Assembly: GCF_900182545.1 (NCBI RefSeq) | Contig: NZ_FXTJ01000003.1 | Coordinates: 248,001 to 312,000 of the forward strand | Reading direction: 5' to 3' | DNA: 64,000 nt | From: Geodermatophilus aquaeductus | GTDB lineage: Bacteria > Actinomycetota > Actinomycetes > Mycobacteriales > Geodermatophilaceae | Made by a program: the position numbers and the translations under genes | In this document: in pieces, positions 3,848 through 10,465 of the stretch | Layout of the letters: every line of letters begins with the position of its first letter | Numbering within the stretch: position 1 is the stretch's first letter | The notes under the pieces: generated by a model | Seen by the model: only the letters and a program-made list of their open reading frames with translations | Told to the model about the DNA's origin: nothing | The model's database searches: none

Positions 3848-4249
3848 CTACTGGTCGTACCGGCGGCGGAAGCGCTCCTCGAGCCGGTTCTTCAGCGGCT
3901 GCTTGCGGGGCTTGCCACCGCGGCCGCGGGCGGCGGTCGCGCCGCCGCGGGCACCGGCCGGGCCGGCCTCGACGACGCCGGTGGCCGAGCGGTAGTTGAG
4001 GACGCCGAGCGCGGCGCCGCCGAACATCACCAGGAAGCCCAGGACGCCGAGCGGGACCGACGGGGCGACCGCGCCGCCGACGAGGACGGCCAGGCCCACC
4101 AGCACCAGCAGCGCACCCAGTTGGAGCTTCCGCCGGGCCTTCAACCTGCGGTCACCCGTGCGGACGGAGGAGGCGAACTTGGGATCGTCGTCGACGAGGG
4201 CGCGCTCGATCTGCTCCAGTAGTCGCTGCTCGTGCTCGGAGAGCGGCAC
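3848..4249 (-). CDS. DUF3040 small membrane protein
   Basis: This protein of about 133 residues starts VPLSEHEQRLLEQIERAL, the hallmark opening of DUF3040. Two adjacent membrane helices follow near residues 45-85, then a basic, Gly/Ala/Arg-rich cytoplasmic tail. I chose GTG at 4249 because a GGAGG lies 6 nt upstream. An upstream start at 4306 would add a non-conserved N-terminus that reads through a perfect hairpin. In mycobacteria the Rv2169c family member sits near the mraZ/division cluster. No function is established. Confidence 0.85.
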   Translation of the reverse strand: MPLSEHEQRLLEQIERALVDDDPKFASSVRTGDRRLKARRKLQLGALLVLVGLAVLVGGAVAPSVPLGVLGFLVMFGGAALGVLNYRSATGVVEAGPAGARGGATAARGRGGKPRKQPLKNRLEERFRRRYDQ

Positions 4250-4275
4250 CGAGACCTCCAGGTGGGCGGAGCCAA

Positions 4276-4303
4276 ACACCCCCGGGTGAATACCCGGGGG
4301 TGT
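4276..4303. promoter_or_regulatory. Perfect 12-bp inverted repeat between dinB and DUF3040 gene
   Basis: ACACCCCCGGGT and its complement flank the loop GAAT. Both neighbouring genes run leftward: dinB ends at 4419 and the DUF3040 start is at 4249. The element could be the dinB terminator or an operator or attenuator of the DUF3040 gene. The sequence alone does not decide. Confidence 0.55.
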
Positions 4304-4418
4304 CACCGAGGATACGAGCCGTGGGCGGGGTGCGAAAGGCGAGTGTGCGGGGACGCGTCACACCCGTCCCGCGACCACCCTCACGGGTGGTGTCGGAGCA
4401 GGTCAGGAGGCCGCCGGG

Positions 4419-5627
4419 TCAGCGCAGCCGGCGGTCGCGGTCGCGGTGCAGCAGCGTGGCGGGCCGGACCGCGCCGGCGCCGAACCGGCGGGCGGCCCGG
4501 TCGGCGGCCAGTTCGGCGTCGCGGCGGCCGTGCTCGCGGGCGCCGAGCTCGAGCTGGCGCGGCGCCTGACCGGCCTGCACCAGCCGTTCGGCGCGGACGC
4601 CGACCAGCCGGATCCGCGCCCGGTCCAGCCCGAGGGCGTCGAAGAGCGCGCGGGCGGTCTCGTACAGCTCCTGCCCGACGTCGGTGGGGACGCCGAGCGT
4701 GCGGCTGCGGGTGAGGGTGGTGAAGTCGGCGAAGCGGACCTTGATGCTCACCGTGCGGGTCAGCCAGCCGCCGGCGCGCAGCCGGCCCGCCGTCCGCTCC
4801 GACAGCCGCAGCAGCTCCCGGTGGATGACGGCGGGGTCGTCGACGTCGGTGGCGAAGGTCTCCTCGTGCCCGGTCGACTTCTCCGGCTCGTCGGGCACCA
4901 CCCGGCGCGGGTCGCGGCCCCAGGCCAGCTCGTGCAGGTGGCTGCCGGCGGCCGGACCGACCGCCCGCTGCAGGGTGCGCGCCGGGACGTGCGCGAGGTC
5001 GCCGACGGTGCGCAGGCCCAGCCGCAGCAGCACCTCCTCGGTCTTGGCGCCGACACCCCACAGCGCGCCGACCGGCAGCGGGTGCAGGAAGTCGATGACC
5101 TCGGCCGGGCGGACGACGAGCAGCCCGTCGGGCTTGGCGCGGGTGGAGGCCAGCTTGGCCACGAACTTGGTGCCGGCCACCCCGACCGAGCAGGTGATGC
5201 CCTGCTCGTCGAAGACGCGGGCGCGCAGGTACTCGCCGATCTCCGCGGCGTCACCCAGCCGGCGCCCGGCTCCGCTGACGTCGAGGAACGCCTCGTCCAG
5301 GCTCAGCGGCTCCACGACCGGCGTCACCGAGCGGAACAGCGCCATGACCGCCCGGGACACCTCGGCGTAGAGCGCCACGTCCCCCGGCAGCACGGTCGCC
5401 GTCGGGCACAGCCGCAGCGCCCGCGCCGTCGGCATGGCGGCGTGCACGCCGTAGGTGCGGGCCTCGTAGGTGGCCGAGGTGACCACCCCGCGGTTGCCCG
5501 CGCCGCCCACGATCACCGGGGTGCCGGCCAGCTCGGGGTGGCGGCGCACCTCGACGCTGGCGAAGAACGCGTCCATGTCGACGTGCAGCACCGTGCACCC
5601 CTCGGCACGCGCCCCCGACGACCGCAC
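4419..5627 (-). CDS. dinB: DNA polymerase IV (Y-family)
   Basis: This is a 402-residue translesion polymerase. The palm motif VLHVDMDAFFASVEV supplies the first catalytic Asp, and SLDEAFLDVSG gives the catalytic Asp-Glu pair. Helix-hairpin-helix and little-finger regions follow. A late QLELG resembles a beta-clamp-binding motif. I chose GTG at 5627 because GGGAGGG lies just upstream; GTG at 5591 is an alternative. A near-perfect LexA box covers 5641-5656, only 13 bp before the start, so SOS control is likely. The gene is transcribed alone or with the downstream DUF3040 gene. Confidence 0.95.
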   Translation of the reverse strand: MRSSGARAEGCTVLHVDMDAFFASVEVRRHPELAGTPVIVGGAGNRGVVTSATYEARTYGVHAAMPTARALRLCPTATVLPGDVALYAEVSRAVMALFRSVTPVVEPLSLDEAFLDVSGAGRRLGDAAEIGEYLRARVFDEQGITCSVGVAGTKFVAKLASTRAKPDGLLVVRPAEVIDFLHPLPVGALWGVGAKTEEVLLRLGLRTVGDLAHVPARTLQRAVGPAAGSHLHELAWGRDPRRVVPDEPEKSTGHEETFATDVDDPAVIHRELLRLSERTAGRLRAGGWLTRTVSIKVRFADFTTLTRSRTLGVPTDVGQELYETARALFDALGLDRARIRLVGVRAERLVQAGQAPRQLELGAREHGRRDAELAADRAARRFGAGAVRPATLLHRDRDRRLR

Positions 5628-5640
5628 GGACCCTCCCTGA

Positions 5641-5656
5641 TCGAACACCTGTTCGC
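5641..5656 (-). promoter_or_regulatory. LexA (SOS) box of dinB
   Basis: TCGAACACCTGTTCGC matches the actinobacterial SOS box TCGAAC-N4-GTTCGA at 11 of 12 fixed positions. It lies immediately upstream of the dinB start on the opposite strand. Binding would cover the transcription start region. Confidence 0.85.
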
Positions 5657-5845
5657 ACCGACCGGGGGAGGGTAACGGCACCGCGCGGCCCGTGGCGCGT
5701 CGTCCCCCCGGCCCCACCCGGCGTGTCCCGGCGCGCCGGGAACTCGCTGGTCGACGCATGTGTGACCGGCCCGTGATCGAGGTAGGTGGGACGCGACCGA
5801 CCGCCGTCCGGCGGCCGGTCCCGACCCGGATCCCGGAGGAGCTCG

Positions 5846-6157
5846 ATGGCGCTCGACGACGACGACATGACCAGCACGGAGGGTCCGGCCGACAGCGGCG
5901 CCGGCGAGGGCACGCCCGGCCAGCACGACGGCGGCGCCGACGGCGGTGCCGACAGCGGCGCGGGTCACGGCCCGGCCGACGGTGGCGCGGCCGGTGGCGG
6001 CTCGGACGGGGGCGCCGACGGCGGTGCGGACGGCGGCGCGGACGGTGGCGCGGACGGCGGTGCCGGTCACGGCCCGGCCGACGGCGGCGCGGCCGGTGGC
6101 GGCTCGGATGGCGGCGCCGACGGTGGTGCCGACGGCGGCGCGGACGGTTCGGCCTGA
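5846..6157 (+). CDS. Gly/Ala/Asp-repeat peptide, possible oxygenase substrate
   Basis: This 103-residue protein starts at ATG 5846 with a strong GGAGGA 5 nt upstream. An acidic N-terminus (MALDDDDMTSTEG) leads into a chain made almost only of Gly, Ala and Asp, in GGAD steps. A 34-residue block occurs twice (about residues 40-66 and 74-100), each carrying one GHGPADGGAAGGGSDGG segment. The only histidines are 27, 41 and 75; there is no Cys, Trp, Tyr, Phe, Lys or Arg. The TGA overlaps the first codon of the JmjC/cupin gene. The layout of a short leader plus repeats, next to a peptide-oxygenase-like enzyme, suggests a modified-peptide precursor or a metal-binding protein. I do not recognise a named family, and the function is unproven. 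Confidence 0.75.
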   Translation: MALDDDDMTSTEGPADSGAGEGTPGQHDGGADGGADSGAGHGPADGGAAGGGSDGGADGGADGGADGGADGGAGHGPADGGAAGGGSDGGADGGADGGADGSA

Positions 6158-7569
6158 GCCAGGACCCGACCGTCGCGGGGCCGGGTGGGGCTGATGCCCG
6201 CCCGGCCCTGCGCCGGTGCACGCACCTCGACCCCGCGCTTTTCGCCGAGGAGTACTGGTCCCGCCGCCCGCTGCTCGCCCGCGCGGAGGACACCGGGGAG
6301 TCGTTCACCGACCTGCTGACGCTGACCGCTGTCGACGAGCTGCTCTCGCGCCGCGGCCTGCGCACGCCGTTCCTGCGCATCGCCAAGGACGGCGCCGTCG
6401 TCGACCCCCAGCGCTTCACGACCTCCGGCGGCGCCGGCGCCGAGGTGGCCGACCAGGTCTCCTCCGACGCCGTGCTGCGGCTGTTCGCCGACGGCAGCAC
6501 CGTGGTCCTGCAGGGCCTGCACCGGCTCTGGCCGCCGCTGATCGAGTTCGCCGACTCCCTCGCCGCCGACCTGGGGCACCCGACGCAGGTCAACGCGTAC
6601 ATCACGCCGCCGTCCTCGCGCGGCTTCTCCCCCCACTACGACGTCCACGACGTCTTCGTGCTGCAGGTGGCCGGCGAGAAGCACTGGACCATCCACGCGC
6701 CGGTGCTCGACGACCCGCTGCGCACCCAGCCGTGGACCGACCGCGCGGCCGCCGTCGCCGCGGCCGCCGAGCGCGAGCCGGTCATCGACGCCGTGCTGCG
6801 CGCGGGCGACGCCCTCTACCTGCCCCGCGGCTACCTGCACTCGGCCGTCGCGCTGGGCCAGACCAGCGCGCACCTGACCATCGGCGTGCACTCCGTCACC
6901 CGGTGGGCGGCCGCGGAGTCGGCGCTGGACCTGGTGCGGGTGCTGGCCGCCGAGGACCGCGAGCTGCGCCGGTCGCTGCCGCTGGGCCTGGACCTGGCCG
7001 ACCCGGCGTCGGTCCGCGACGACGTCGCCACCGTCGTCGCGGCGCTGCAGGAGTGGCTCGGCCGGGTCGACCCCGACGAGGTCGCCGACCGCCTGCGCTC
7101 GCGGACGTGGTCGCAGGTGCGCCCCGAGCCGGTCGCGCCGCTGGCCCAGGCCACCGCGGCCGCGGCGCTCTCGCCGGACACCGTGCTGCGGCTGCGCCGC
7201 CGGCTGCGCTGCGCGCTGCGCGACGCGCCCGCCACCGCCGACGGCGAGCGGGTCGCCCTGCTCGCCGGCCGGCGCCGGCTGGAGTTCCCCGCCTCGACCC
7301 GCGCGGCGCTGACCGGGCTGCTGGCCACCGGCGAGGCCAAGGTCGCCGACCTGGCCGGGCTCGACGCGGCCGACCAGCTCACCCTCGCCCGCCGGCTGGT
7401 GACCGAGTCGGTCGCGCTCGTCGCCGACGCCGCCGTGCAGGGCGCCGACGGGTACGACGGCGTCCCGTCCACCGCGCCCGAGCCCGGCCCGACCGGACCG
7501 GACGCCCCGGCACCGGACGCCGGCGGGGACGATGGGGAGCGTGCCGACGCCCTCGGGACCGGGTCGTGA
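6154..7569 (+). CDS. JmjC/cupin-4 2-oxoglutarate-dependent oxygenase
   Basis: This protein of about 471 residues belongs to the cupin-4/JmjC-like group, which includes the ribosomal-protein hydroxylases RoxA (YcfD) and MINA/NO66. The Fe(II) site is visible as His161-Tyr-Asp163 in SPHYDVHDVF, with the distal His229 in PRGYLHSAV. VAGEKHW is the usual strand after the first motif. The C-terminal half is a winged-helix-like region, followed by a Pro-rich tail. There is no ATG, GTG or TTG in frame near the expected N-terminus. CTG at 6154, overlapping the peptide gene's TGA as CTGA, is the best start and implies coupling; a frameshift fusion with the repeat peptide is the alternative. Substrate unknown; the adjacent peptide is the obvious candidate. 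Confidence 0.85.
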   Translation: MSQDPTVAGPGGADARPALRRCTHLDPALFAEEYWSRRPLLARAEDTGESFTDLLTLTAVDELLSRRGLRTPFLRIAKDGAVVDPQRFTTSGGAGAEVADQVSSDAVLRLFADGSTVVLQGLHRLWPPLIEFADSLAADLGHPTQVNAYITPPSSRGFSPHYDVHDVFVLQVAGEKHWTIHAPVLDDPLRTQPWTDRAAAVAAAAEREPVIDAVLRAGDALYLPRGYLHSAVALGQTSAHLTIGVHSVTRWAAAESALDLVRVLAAEDRELRRSLPLGLDLADPASVRDDVATVVAALQEWLGRVDPDEVADRLRSRTWSQVRPEPVAPLAQATAAAALSPDTVLRLRRRLRCALRDAPATADGERVALLAGRRRLEFPASTRAALTGLLATGEAKVADLAGLDAADQLTLARRLVTESVALVADAAVQGADGYDGVPSTAPEPGPTGPDAPAPDAGGDDGERADALGTGS

Positions 7570-8536
7570 CCGGGCCGCTCCCCTCCGGGTGAGCGGCGCG
7601 GTCGCCGCACGCGGAGCAGCACCCGAGCGGGCCGGCCGGCTGGACGCCACCCGCTGCTCGGTGACGGCCCTGGTCCGGGAGGACTCCCCCGTGGCCTCGG
7701 CCGGGCCGGCACAGCGCTGGCTGCTGGTCGAGCAGCCCGGCCCGTGGGGCCGCGACGCCCTCACCGGGTCGCGCTTCGACCAGGCGGTGGCCGCCCGGCT
7801 GTCGGCGCGGGCGCGGGCCGAGGGCGTGCGCGTGCTGCTCGTGCGCCGGCCGGGTGGGCGGCTGGCCGACTCCGGACGCCGCTGGGCCTACGCCGACGGC
7901 CGCCCCGGCCGCGAGGGCCTGTGGTGGTCGGTGCGCACCGACGACGCCGACCTGCTCGACGCGCCGTGGGACGGCTCGGTCGGCGAGCGCACCGACCGGC
8001 CCACCTACCTGGTGTGCACGCACGGCCAGCACGACGCCTGCTGCGCGCTGCGCGGCCGGCCGCTGGCCGCGTCGATGCCGGCGCCGGACGTCTGGGAGTG
8101 CAGCCACCTCGGCGGCTGCCGGTTCGCCACCAACGTGCTGGTGCTGCCGCACGGCTTCGCCTACGGGCAGGTCCCCGGCGACGGCTCCGACGTGGTGGAC
8201 GCGCACGCCCGCGGCGAGGTCGCGTTGCCGTGGCTGCGCGGGCGGGCCGGGGTGGCGCTGCCGGCGCAGGCCGCCCAGCAGGCCGCGCGCGAGCGGCTGG
8301 GCCTGCTGGGGGTCGACGACCTGCCAGTGCGCGGGTCGCGGCGGCTGGCCGGCACCGGCGCCGAGGACGCCGACGGCGTCGAGCGCTTCGAGGTGGTGCT
8401 CGGCGGGACCGACGGGGACGTCGTGGTGCGGGTGGAGAGCCGGCCGGCCGAGGAGGCCGCGCAGCTCACCTGCCGGGCGCTGCACCCGGCGCACCCGCGC
8501 ACCTGGACGGCGCTGTCGGTGTCACCGGTCCGCTGA
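7532..8536 (+). CDS. Sucrase/ferredoxin-like (Apd1-type thioredoxin-fold) protein
   Basis: This 334-residue member of the sucrase/ferredoxin-like family has a thioredoxin fold. Characteristic segments are CTHGQHDACCALRGRPLA and WECSHLGGCRFATNVLVL, which carry the Cys and His residues expected to hold a 2Fe-2S cluster in Apd1-type ferredoxins. The ATG at 7532 lies inside the end of the cupin gene (38-bp overlap); GTG at 7541 is an alternative. It is the third gene of the repeat-peptide operon, so it may supply electrons or iron to that system. That role is inference; the family assignment is firm. Confidence 0.88.
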   Translation: MGSVPTPSGPGRDRAAPLRVSGAVAARGAAPERAGRLDATRCSVTALVREDSPVASAGPAQRWLLVEQPGPWGRDALTGSRFDQAVAARLSARARAEGVRVLLVRRPGGRLADSGRRWAYADGRPGREGLWWSVRTDDADLLDAPWDGSVGERTDRPTYLVCTHGQHDACCALRGRPLAASMPAPDVWECSHLGGCRFATNVLVLPHGFAYGQVPGDGSDVVDAHARGEVALPWLRGRAGVALPAQAAQQAARERLGLLGVDDLPVRGSRRLAGTGAEDADGVERFEVVLGGTDGDVVVRVESRPAEEAAQLTCRALHPAHPRTWTALSVSPVR

Positions 8537-8540
8537 CCCC

Positions 8541-9716
8541 TCAGCCGAGCGCGCGACCCCGGGCCAGCAGCAGCGGGATCGCGACCTCGGCCGCGGTGAG
8601 CGAGCCGTGGTAGGCCGCCAGCCGGCTGGGGCCGGGCTCGGTGGCCGACGCGGTGACCGCCCACGGGCCGCGGGTCAGCACGACGACGTCGCCGATGCGG
8701 GCGGCCATGCCCTCGCCGACGGCGCCGAAGACCCCGCTGGCGATGGCCTCCTCGCGCCCGGCGACCCACGCCCGGTCGCCGAGGACGCCACGCCACGCGT
8801 CGAGGACGTCGGCGGCGGCGCCCGGGACGGCGTGCACGTAGCGGGCGCGCGGCTCCCCGGCCAGCAGCGCGACGCCGTCGAGCAGCGCGGGCTCGTCGTC
8901 GACGTCGACGCGGGTGCCGCGGGGGACGTCGAGCATCCCGTGGTCGGCGGTGACCAGCAGGGCGGCGTCGTCGGGCAGGCCGTCCACGACCTGCTCGACC
9001 AGCCGATCGACGAGGGCGAGCTGCAGCCGCCAGCTGTCGGAGTCGATCCCGCGGACGTGGCCGGTGAGGTCGAGCTCGGGGGTGTAGCCGTAGACCAGCC
9101 CGGTGGGGGTGGCGGCCAGCGACCGCAGGATCCCCGCGGCGAGGTCGCCGGCGCCGACCGTGCCCGAGTAGCCCGCGCCGCGGTAGGCGGCGGTGGTCAG
9201 CCCGGAGCCGGCGTAGGCGTACGGCGCGACGGCGGTGACCGGCAGGCCGGCCGCGGCGGCCTGCTCGAAGACGGTGGGGCGGGACTGCCAGTCGCGCGGG
9301 TCGGGGTCGTCGGCCCACTGCACGTGGTTGAGCAGCCGGTCCTCGCCGGGGACGGCGGTGACGAAGCCGAGGACGCCGTGCCCGCCCGGGGGGACGCCGG
9401 TGCCGAGCGTGACCAGGCTGACCGGGGTGGTGCTCGGGCAGGGCGCGGCGAGGTCGCCGGCGGGGGTGGCGAGCGCGCTGAGGGCCGGCGCGAGGGCGGC
9501 GTGCGCGCGCAGCAGGTGCGCGCCGAGGCCGTCGACGAGCAGGACCGCGACCCGGCGGGCGCCGGCCAGGGCGTCGGTGAGGCCGAGCGGATCTGCGGGC
9601 AGCCCGCCGCGGTCGACGGCGACGCCGAGGGCGGCGGCCCCACCGGGCAGGACGTCGGCGAGGCTGGCCGCGCCGTAGGCCGGCGGGACCAGGTCGGCGG
9701 GGAGCACCGCCGTCAC
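8541..9716 (-). CDS. Type I phosphodiesterase/nucleotide pyrophosphatase family protein
   Basis: This 391-residue protein of the alkaline phosphatase superfamily has the first metal Asp in VAVLLVDGLGAHLL, a Thr-nucleophile region in PSTTPVSLVTLGTG, and later metal ligands in DLTGHVRG and VTADHGMLDV. It probably hydrolyses phosphodiester or pyrophosphate bonds; the substrate is unknown. No signal peptide is visible, so it is likely cytoplasmic. GTG 9716 overlaps the stop of the upstream methyltransferase by four bases (GTGA), giving a two-gene leftward operon. It is convergent with the ferredoxin-like gene, with only a 4-bp gap. Confidence 0.88.
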   Translation of the reverse strand: MTAVLPADLVPPAYGAASLADVLPGGAAALGVAVDRGGLPADPLGLTDALAGARRVAVLLVDGLGAHLLRAHAALAPALSALATPAGDLAAPCPSTTPVSLVTLGTGVPPGGHGVLGFVTAVPGEDRLLNHVQWADDPDPRDWQSRPTVFEQAAAAGLPVTAVAPYAYAGSGLTTAAYRGAGYSGTVGAGDLAAGILRSLAATPTGLVYGYTPELDLTGHVRGIDSDSWRLQLALVDRLVEQVVDGLPDDAALLVTADHGMLDVPRGTRVDVDDEPALLDGVALLAGEPRARYVHAVPGAAADVLDAWRGVLGDRAWVAGREEAIASGVFGAVGEGMAARIGDVVVLTRGPWAVTASATEPGPSRLAAYHGSLTAAEVAIPLLLARGRALG

Positions 9717-10465
9717 GGGCGGGTGGCCAGGACGTGCAGACCGGTGGCGACGTCGCGGTAGGGCGAGGTGCCGGCCAGCGCGAGCTCGAGCCGGCGGACG
9801 GCGTCGGGGTCGGCGCCGGAGCTCGCGTCGAGCAGGTCGGCGACCACCGCCACGCCGCGCCACTCCCCCGGCTCCAGGCCGGCGTTGCGCAGGAGGGCGA
9901 GCAGGTCCTCGGAGGCGAAGCGGCGGCGGGCCGGGCGGGTGCGGCCGGGCGCGGGGTCGCGGTCCTCCAGGAGGGCCAGCGCCTCCTTCGGGTGGCCGCT
10001 CAGCGCCCGGGCGAGGACGGCGCCGGCGCGGTTGGCTGTGGCGACGCTGACCTGCCCGCCGGGGCGCAGCGCGCGGGTGATCTCGCCGAGGGTGGTGGCG
10101 GGGTCGTCGACGACCTCGAGGACGGCGTGGCAGAGCGCGAGGTCGTAGCCGCCGCCGTCGGGGCGATCGCCGCCGAGAGGCAGCTCGTGCAGCAGGTCGC
10201 CGTCGCCCTGCAGGCCGCGGACCCGGTCGCCGACGCCGGCGGTCTGCGCGCGGCGCTCGAGGGTGGCCAGGGCGTCGGCGCTGGGGTCGACGACGGTGAC
10301 CTCGTGGCCGAGGCGGGCGAGCGGGACGGCGAAGACGCCGCTCCCGCCGCCGACGTCGAGGACCCGCAGCGCGGTCCCGCGCCCGGCCAGCGCGTCGAGC
10401 GCGGCCCAGACCGCGGCGGTCCGGACGGGCAGGTGCTCGCCGGAGGACGGGGCGGGGGCGCTCAC
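9713..10465 (-). CDS. Class I SAM-dependent methyltransferase
   Basis: This 250-residue Rossmann methyltransferase has motif I VLDVGGGSGVFAVPLA, an acidic residue at the end of strand 2 (VTVVDPSADAL), and the motif IV-like ALCHAVLEVVDDP. The overall pattern resembles CmoA/CmoM-type or UbiE-type enzymes, but the substrate cannot be read from the sequence. GTG 10465 gives the expected family length; no clear Shine-Dalgarno precedes it. It is coupled to the phosphodiesterase gene downstream. Confidence 0.88.
   Translation of the reverse strand: MSAPAPSSGEHLPVRTAAVWAALDALAGRGTALRVLDVGGGSGVFAVPLARLGHEVTVVDPSADALATLERRAQTAGVGDRVRGLQGDGDLLHELPLGGDRPDGGGYDLALCHAVLEVVDDPATTLGEITRALRPGGQVSVATANRAGAVLARALSGHPKEALALLEDRDPAPGRTRPARRRFASEDLLALLRNAGLEPGEWRGVAVVADLLDASSGADPDAVRRLELALAGTSPYRDVATGLHVLATRP

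Follow-up and report, generated by a model that had tools for sequence, protein, structure and literature searches.

The closest described relatives of the enzyme considered here are the human ribosomal oxygenases (ROX) NO66 (RIOX1) and MINA53 (RIOX2), which according to their entry titles act on histidines of ribosomal proteins, and YcfD/RoxA, the bacterial L16 arginyl hydroxylase, whose substrate is an arginine of L16 and which shares 16-19% identity with our enzyme; we know of no peptide partner of YcfD/RoxA. From the field of ribosomally synthesized and post-translationally modified peptides (RiPPs), the available parts of three sources describe BipG, a JmjC ornithine hydroxylase of biphenomycin biosynthesis (PMC12707348), CorC of the corallotide pathway, which acts on five repeats, and SmaO, which acts on Asp (PMC13097080), and JmjC proteins of family PF08007 with a domain resembling the RiPP recognition element (RRE) (PMC12710340). 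Here we analyze 64,000 nucleotides of Geodermatophilus aquaeductus (contig NZ_FXTJ01000003.1, positions 248,001 to 312,000 of the forward strand; the window, hereafter), in which a short gene for a Gly/Ala/Asp repeat peptide probably overlaps the gene of a JmjC_2 oxygenase. Peptide and oxygenase form a conserved pair across Actinomycetota, and we consider it fairly probable that the peptide is a RiPP-like precursor whose Asp residues are oxidized, most likely β-hydroxylated at many sites, by the paired oxygenase. The features of this locus are as follows.

5835..5841, plus strand: GGAGGAG, Shine-Dalgarno-like site of the peptide gene (from the sequence; comparable GGAG sites precede relatives)
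5846..6157, plus strand: peptide gene with Gly/Ala/Asp repeats, 103 amino acids, candidate precursor (relatives stand before the oxygenase; purifying selection)
5846..5875, plus strand: conserved N-terminal leader-like stretch MALDDDDMTS (comparison of relatives)
5926..6148, plus strand: repeat (core) region, 12-nt DGGA units within a 102-nt period (Tandem Repeats Finder)
6154..6157, plus strand: CTGA, the peptide stop over the likely CTG start of the oxygenase (family loci; start-codon analysis)
6154..7569, plus strand: JmjC_2 (cupin-4) Fe(II)/2-oxoglutarate oxygenase, NO66/MINA53 fold in the predicted model (PF08007, E 1.4e-27)
6634..6642, plus strand: HxD iron-binding motif, H160 (6634) and D162 (6640), by alignment, residues numbered from 6157
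6838..6840, plus strand: distal iron-binding histidine H228, by alignment, same numbering
7183..7455, plus strand: C-terminal winged-helix-like domain, residues 343-433 of the AlphaFold model, candidate leader-binding module
7532..8536, plus strand: Suc_Fer-like protein, accessory third gene (PF06999, E 1.4e-14; downstream in most loci)

The oxygenase was detected in all 26 genomes of the genus, in 108 of 112 genomes of the family (94 of the 96 of good quality), and in 184 of 298 and 58 of 396 genomes of the order and phylum samples, respectively, these last two counts including some weak matches that are other JmjC_2 paralogues. Immediately 5' of it, 108 of the first 113 loci carry an open reading frame (ORF) for a related peptide, 82 of which are distinct; the peptide is likewise present in two of the five that remained, L098 and L101, and the rest end at contig edges. 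We also applied a position-blind rule, which required a leader-like motif followed, up to the stop, by a minimum of 12% Asp and 65% G/A/D/S/T/E; an ORF was scored as upstream if it ended no more than 260 nt before or 60 nt after the point where the oxygenase match begins. Of 203 loci, 176 have such an upstream ORF, and only three elsewhere among 16,712 ORFs satisfy the rule, two of these three being one oxygenase C terminus counted twice. The 27 loci that fail the rule include contig-end cuts, variant leaders, and seven paralogues. The 203 loci contain repeats of the same genomes; the nonredundant set comprises 141 oxygenases, of which four were dropped for having too little upstream sequence. 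The first-pass annotation, made from the DNA letters without database searches, had proposed looking for repeat peptide genes beside oxygenase homologs and would have counted homologs that never occur with one as evidence to the contrary; an Asp-rich ORF precedes the oxygenase in 130 of the 137 assessable nonredundant loci, 118 of them by the strict rule and the others by composition only.

Presence and absence across genomes agree with this linkage. A peptide profile (E 1e-5) matched 134 of the 298 order genomes, all 134 of which encode the oxygenase, and none of the 114 oxygenase-negative ones, where diverged peptides would likewise escape the profile. The profile is insensitive, leaving 50 oxygenase-positive genomes unmatched; nine of ten of these that we inspected have an Asp-rich peptide upstream, and genome G208 does not. 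The Fisher test on this co-occurrence ignores the kinship of the genomes, and the distant loci were hand-picked for diversity from the order and phylum lists rather than drawn at random. An 18-nt DGGADG pattern was useless as a genome marker (293 of 298 genomes match), and the profile search was used instead. Linkage, a codon-position test (below), and presence/absence across genomes rule out a chance low-complexity ORF, and carriage by phages or viruses was rejected, no relatives being found in phage records or viral contigs. In a midpoint-rooted tree of the enzymes, those paired with DGGAD-type peptides form one group of 111 (support, 0.88) that contains no peptide-less paralogues; outside it, other peptide types and paralogues are interleaved, and therefore the peptide-less paralogues may reflect either losses or more than one gain of the peptide.

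The peptide gene reads from ATG 5846 to TGA 6155-6157 and encodes 41 Gly, 21 Ala, 19 Asp, and 3 His residues but no Lys or Arg; the 103-residue repeat peptide with a strong ribosome site that had been read from the letters is borne out by GGAGGAG at 5835-5841 ahead of this start. The pattern of substitution indicates purifying selection at the protein level, since differences among 11 nonoverlapping, ungapped pairs of orthologs fall 22/17/218 on codon positions 1/2/3. The 12 DGGA units of the window peptide have 8 different DNA spellings. As the units were picked by translation, zero entropy at the first two codon positions of the repeats is circular, and it is the spellings and the codon-position test that count. 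Neither the window peptide nor four relatives matched any Pfam or NCBIfam family.

Constant across lineages are the position before the oxygenase, a motif of LxD(D/E)D(I/M)xT type at the N terminus, and the many Asp residues. The DGGAD-type repeat approximates EGPADGGATPGQHDGGADGGA, with HDGGAD frequent, and full-length family peptides range from 64 to 130 amino acids. Distant actinobacteria have wholly different repeats, such as DADG/TDGD runs, ADGTDQGVxGGTYGPRDAG, or two copies of PTEDDENLDAPGEHSQDTGDE, and locus L173 has a nonrepetitive Asp/Glu-rich ORF in place of the repeat peptide. Of 65 distant peptides picked solely on composition, 57 match the motif D[DEAQ]x0-2[IMV], whereas shuffling the same stretches predicts 22.3, and at least five of the 57 matches lie off the evident N terminus (L140, L171, L178, L181, and L200); these counts point to a conserved, putative leader apart from a variable core. 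We counted residues in the 176 peptides (138 distinct) that pass the position-blind rule, leaving out the 27 failing loci. Every one of the 138 cores has at least four Asp, and Asp makes up 20.6% of residues, although its presence in all 138 is partly built in because the picking rule asks for at least 12% Asp. His is absent from 29 of the 138 and lies in the core of 108, 11 cores lack Pro, 89 peptides lack Lys and Arg, and none contains Cys.

Two further ORFs resemble the peptide. On Streptomyces clavuligerus plasmid pSCL4 (L207:3808-3954), a 48-residue hypothetical protein (WP_009999493.1) with a leader-like SLEPDEIEV and two DP-rich stretches precedes a cupin gene whose product is 37% identical to the window enzyme over 64% of the latter; it may be a minimal version of the peptide. 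Locus L095 has, some 430 nt 5' of its oxygenase match, a second, less repetitive Asp-rich ORF with a leader-like LDDDM motif, possibly a duplicated precursor.

The peptide and oxygenase genes had been described as overlapping by one codon. They do overlap, but by 4 nt (CTGA), and the overlap requires that the oxygenase start at CTG. No in-frame ATG, GTG, or TTG occurs between 5773 and 6445 of the window; the upstream in-frame starts (5692, 5758, and 5773) all precede the peptide gene, and the next one downstream, GTG 6445, lies within the conserved domain. In L002 (96% identical), a stop 36 nt before the CTG cuts off the upstream in-frame starts. Among 89 distinct family loci, which are related so that the counts are not independent, the peptide always ends in CTGA, and in 84 the frame of this CTG runs without a stop into that of the oxygenase. 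The last sense codon of the peptide is GCC in 88 of these loci and GTC in one; Ala codons within the repeats are GCC (684), GCG (389), GCT (49), and GCA (12). No ATG, GTG, or TTG lies between the preceding in-frame stop and the CTG in 61 of the 84 in-frame loci; 34 of the 61 also have no start within the next 60 codons, and 10 have a GTG 6 nt past the CTG, a possible alternative. The five departing loci are three from Klenkia, which have a gap and, by inspection, their own GTG start, L103, where a GTG follows the stop by 3 nt, and L077. A frameshift fusion of peptide and oxygenase was set aside: other lineages keep the two genes apart, and the sequence ahead of CTGA is variable. CTG initiation is probably the simplest reading for most family loci, which makes this CTG a candidate for a start codon conserved throughout the lineage and used with stop-codon overlap, an arrangement that would tie enzyme dose to substrate.

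That the second gene encodes a complete 2-oxoglutarate/Fe(II) oxygenase with HxD and distal His, as first proposed, was confirmed by its PF08007 match and by H160, D162, and H228, which are invariant in a 50-row alignment. The enzyme has a PF08007 domain of the ROX type, including the HxD...H iron site and the conserved lysine, and, in the predicted model and structural alignment, the whole-length ROX architecture of JmjC domain, helical middle, and C-terminal winged helix. It matches NO66 in sequence (E 8.4e-21), and its predicted fold aligns with NO66, MINA53, and YcfD over the whole length, a comparison that speaks for the entries among the matches listed and leaves room for other folds. 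The NO66 and MINA53 alignments extend to residues 423-429, i.e., into the C-terminal domain, which in the AlphaFold model consists of four strands followed by three helices with short strands between them. A JmjC/cupin gene on a Pseudanabaena plasmid (L208) lies near a LanM lanthipeptide synthetase gene.

The third gene belongs to PF06999, the family of Suc_Fer-like and Apd1-type ferredoxins, which we take to bind a [2Fe-2S] cluster. Its proposed overlap with the 3' end of the oxygenase gene holds if it starts at ATG 7532; the corresponding MGxV start recurs in 4 of 11 other loci (L003, L007, L030, and L054). The Apd1-like label is right as to the Pfam family, but HxGGH, reportedly the Apd1 ligand motif, occurs in none of 182 Suc_Fer relatives (genome repeats included), which have HxGGD (136) or HxGGC (44) or are unmatched (2); CxH...CC is present in 167. 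Among 199 loci with enough sequence to hold it, 181 have the gene immediately downstream, and divergent copies may have escaped detection in the other 18. These are the seven paralogues and 11 others, including L173 and all five loci sampled from family f16 (L141-L143, L159, and L166). Because these 11 retain an Asp-rich ORF before the oxygenase, the Suc_Fer-like gene is accessory, common but not universal.

The trio is flanked by two genes, both identified by library match.

4419-5582, minus strand: dinB-like polymerase
8541-9863, minus strand: phosphodiesterase

Farther out, at 3848-4306 on the minus strand, lies an ordinary actinobacterial gene for an SCO2097-family morphological protein (NF058603, 142 bits; cutoff, 110). 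Across 78 loci the oxygenase recurs in 77 and the Suc_Fer-like gene in 59, and all other ORFs recur in at most 6, apart from minus-strand clusters of 45, 22, and 13 that overlap the trio genes and were taken as shadows. The short flanks covered show no recurring synthetase gene. We found no sigma-70-like promoter and no intrinsic terminator in 5560-8700. GGGTA(C/T), which presumably resembles a SigB/SigF-type -10 element, precedes the peptide gene in 10 of 30 distant loci (L136, L137, L141, L157, L159, and L163-L167; shuffle mean, 2.0; minus strand, 5), but just one of the 74 family loci has it (shuffle mean, 3.8); this is a weak lead toward stress-sigma control of the cassette.

We propose that the small gene yields a ribosomal precursor peptide made up of a short N-terminal recognition stretch (LxDDD[I/M]x[S/T]) and C-terminal Asp-rich repeats. 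In Geodermatophilaceae, the oxygenase would be made by coupled translation from the CTG overlapping the peptide stop; it would bind the peptide, plausibly by means of the winged-helix-like domain at its C terminus, and use Fe(II), O2, and 2-oxoglutarate to oxidize the repeated Asp residues, most likely to β-hydroxyaspartate at many sites per chain. The Suc_Fer-like protein would be an auxiliary, perhaps holding the iron centre reduced. Membership among RiPPs, for which the cassette is a candidate, rests on the linkage of an encoded precursor to a likely modifying enzyme and on the leader/core pattern. Asp is the putative site because it is the reactive residue common to the peptides, and a repeated Asp substrate is the natural reading because abundant Asp unites peptides that otherwise differ. 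A chain of Asp and hydroxy-Asp is expected to bind hard metals. A bolder version, which we offer tentatively and think somewhat less likely to be right than wrong, is a phylum-wide actinobacterial class of poly-hydroxyaspartate repeat peptides, in which a two-gene cassette, near universal and mostly single copy in Geodermatophilaceae, uses an NO66-like JmjC enzyme for iterative β-hydroxylation to make a metal-binding polymer.

Several observations weigh against the proposed precursor role. The closest characterized enzymes hydroxylate His or Arg of ribosomal proteins rather than Asp, according to their entry titles. The C-terminal domain has no Pfam RRE match, and the motif is unmatched in 8 of the 65 distant peptides, including L148 (truncated) and L191 (variant ITDNDITS). 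Seven loci (L193-L199), encoding JmjC_2 relatives 28-35% identical to the window enzyme, have no peptide; the ORF that ends just before the paralogue in L193 is presumably TfuA-like, judging from its sequence. The small protein before a Streptomyces atratus relative of the oxygenase is unlike the peptide. Finally, no protease or transporter recurs by the cassette in the 78 loci, whose flanks are mostly ~2-3 kb so that such genes may lie elsewhere, and therefore no excised product is evident.

It is unlikely, if not negligibly so, that the oxygenase is instead a bacterial ribosomal oxygenase and the acidic peptide its regulator, chaperone, or competitive decoy, with no product. The whole-length fold match to NO66, MINA53, and YcfD and the NO66 sequence match would fit such an enzyme, a Gly/Asp-rich and probably unstructured peptide could serve as its binding partner, and the absence of a recurring protease or exporter nearby would be no surprise; yet the repeats change completely between lineages while many Asp are kept, which suits a multisite substrate better than a fixed decoy, and peptide length varies as well. 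We think it distinctly unlikely that the oxygenase oxidizes Asp in some other way, for instance by dehydrogenation, by shortening the side chain, or by forming a cross-link. Enzymes of the 2-oxoglutarate class are versatile, and SmaX turns hydroxyaspartate into aminomalonate according to the available part of PMC13097080, but the entries that match best bear the titles of hydroxylases, ribosomal oxygenases, or demethylases, and nothing specific indicates another chemistry.

The target residue also bears on the alternatives. The first-pass annotation had put forward Asp or His as the repeated substrate; abundant Asp throughout the peptides sustains the former, whereas His as a general target is weakened by the peptides that lack it, and Cys by its absence from all of them. 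That His (or Pro) in the repeats is modified as in NO66 and MINA53, with Asp serving metal affinity or solubility only, is accordingly very unlikely, even though the NO66 and MINA53 entries are titled histidine hydroxylases and most cores contain His, often as HDGGAD; some cores lack Pro too. Least likely among the readings weighed is an unmodified intracellular acidic polymer, a cation buffer or nucleic-acid mimic, through which the oxygenase merely senses oxygen or iron: the scarcity of Lys and Arg and the high Asp content would suit it, but among the 298 order genomes the profile matched the peptide only in oxygenase-bearing ones.

If the proposed precursor reading holds, it names a substrate for a large orphan clade of JmjC oxygenases, reveals a minimal one-enzyme system for multisite peptide hydroxylation that extends across Actinomycetota, and provides a case in which the NO66-type fold, familiar from enzymes of ribosomal proteins, serves a dedicated peptide. 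The suggestion that this is a new peptide system agrees with the literature searched, in which, most subscription papers being beyond reach, no description of the cassette appeared among the matches listed and the strings DGGADGG, GGADGGADGG, HDGGAD, and GPADGGA did not occur. The part of PMC7174638 available proved unrelated to the cassette.

Compared with NO66 and MINA53, the window-type enzyme differs in that its constant partner is an Asp-rich peptide that is sometimes free of His. BipG, as described in the accessible part of its source, likewise is a JmjC enzyme acting on a ribosomal precursor peptide; compared by description only, it differs in being one tailoring step among many and in acting on ornithine (PMC12707348). 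CorC and SmaO, in the portion of PMC13097080 at hand, resemble the proposed system in being 2-oxoglutarate oxygenases with a ribosomal peptide as substrate, CorC acting on its repeats and SmaO on Asp; CorC belongs to PF13640 and its substrate is cyclized by a graspetide synthetase, while the likeness to SmaO is by description only. The works cited for PF08007 proteins with an RRE-like domain concern mainly lanthipeptides/prochlorosins and other RiPPs, and the passage available does not mention Asp-repeat precursors (PMC12710340). Each part of the cassette has its precedent in these systems; what would be new is their combination in a candidate RiPP-like system in which a single enzyme modifies Asp at many sites.

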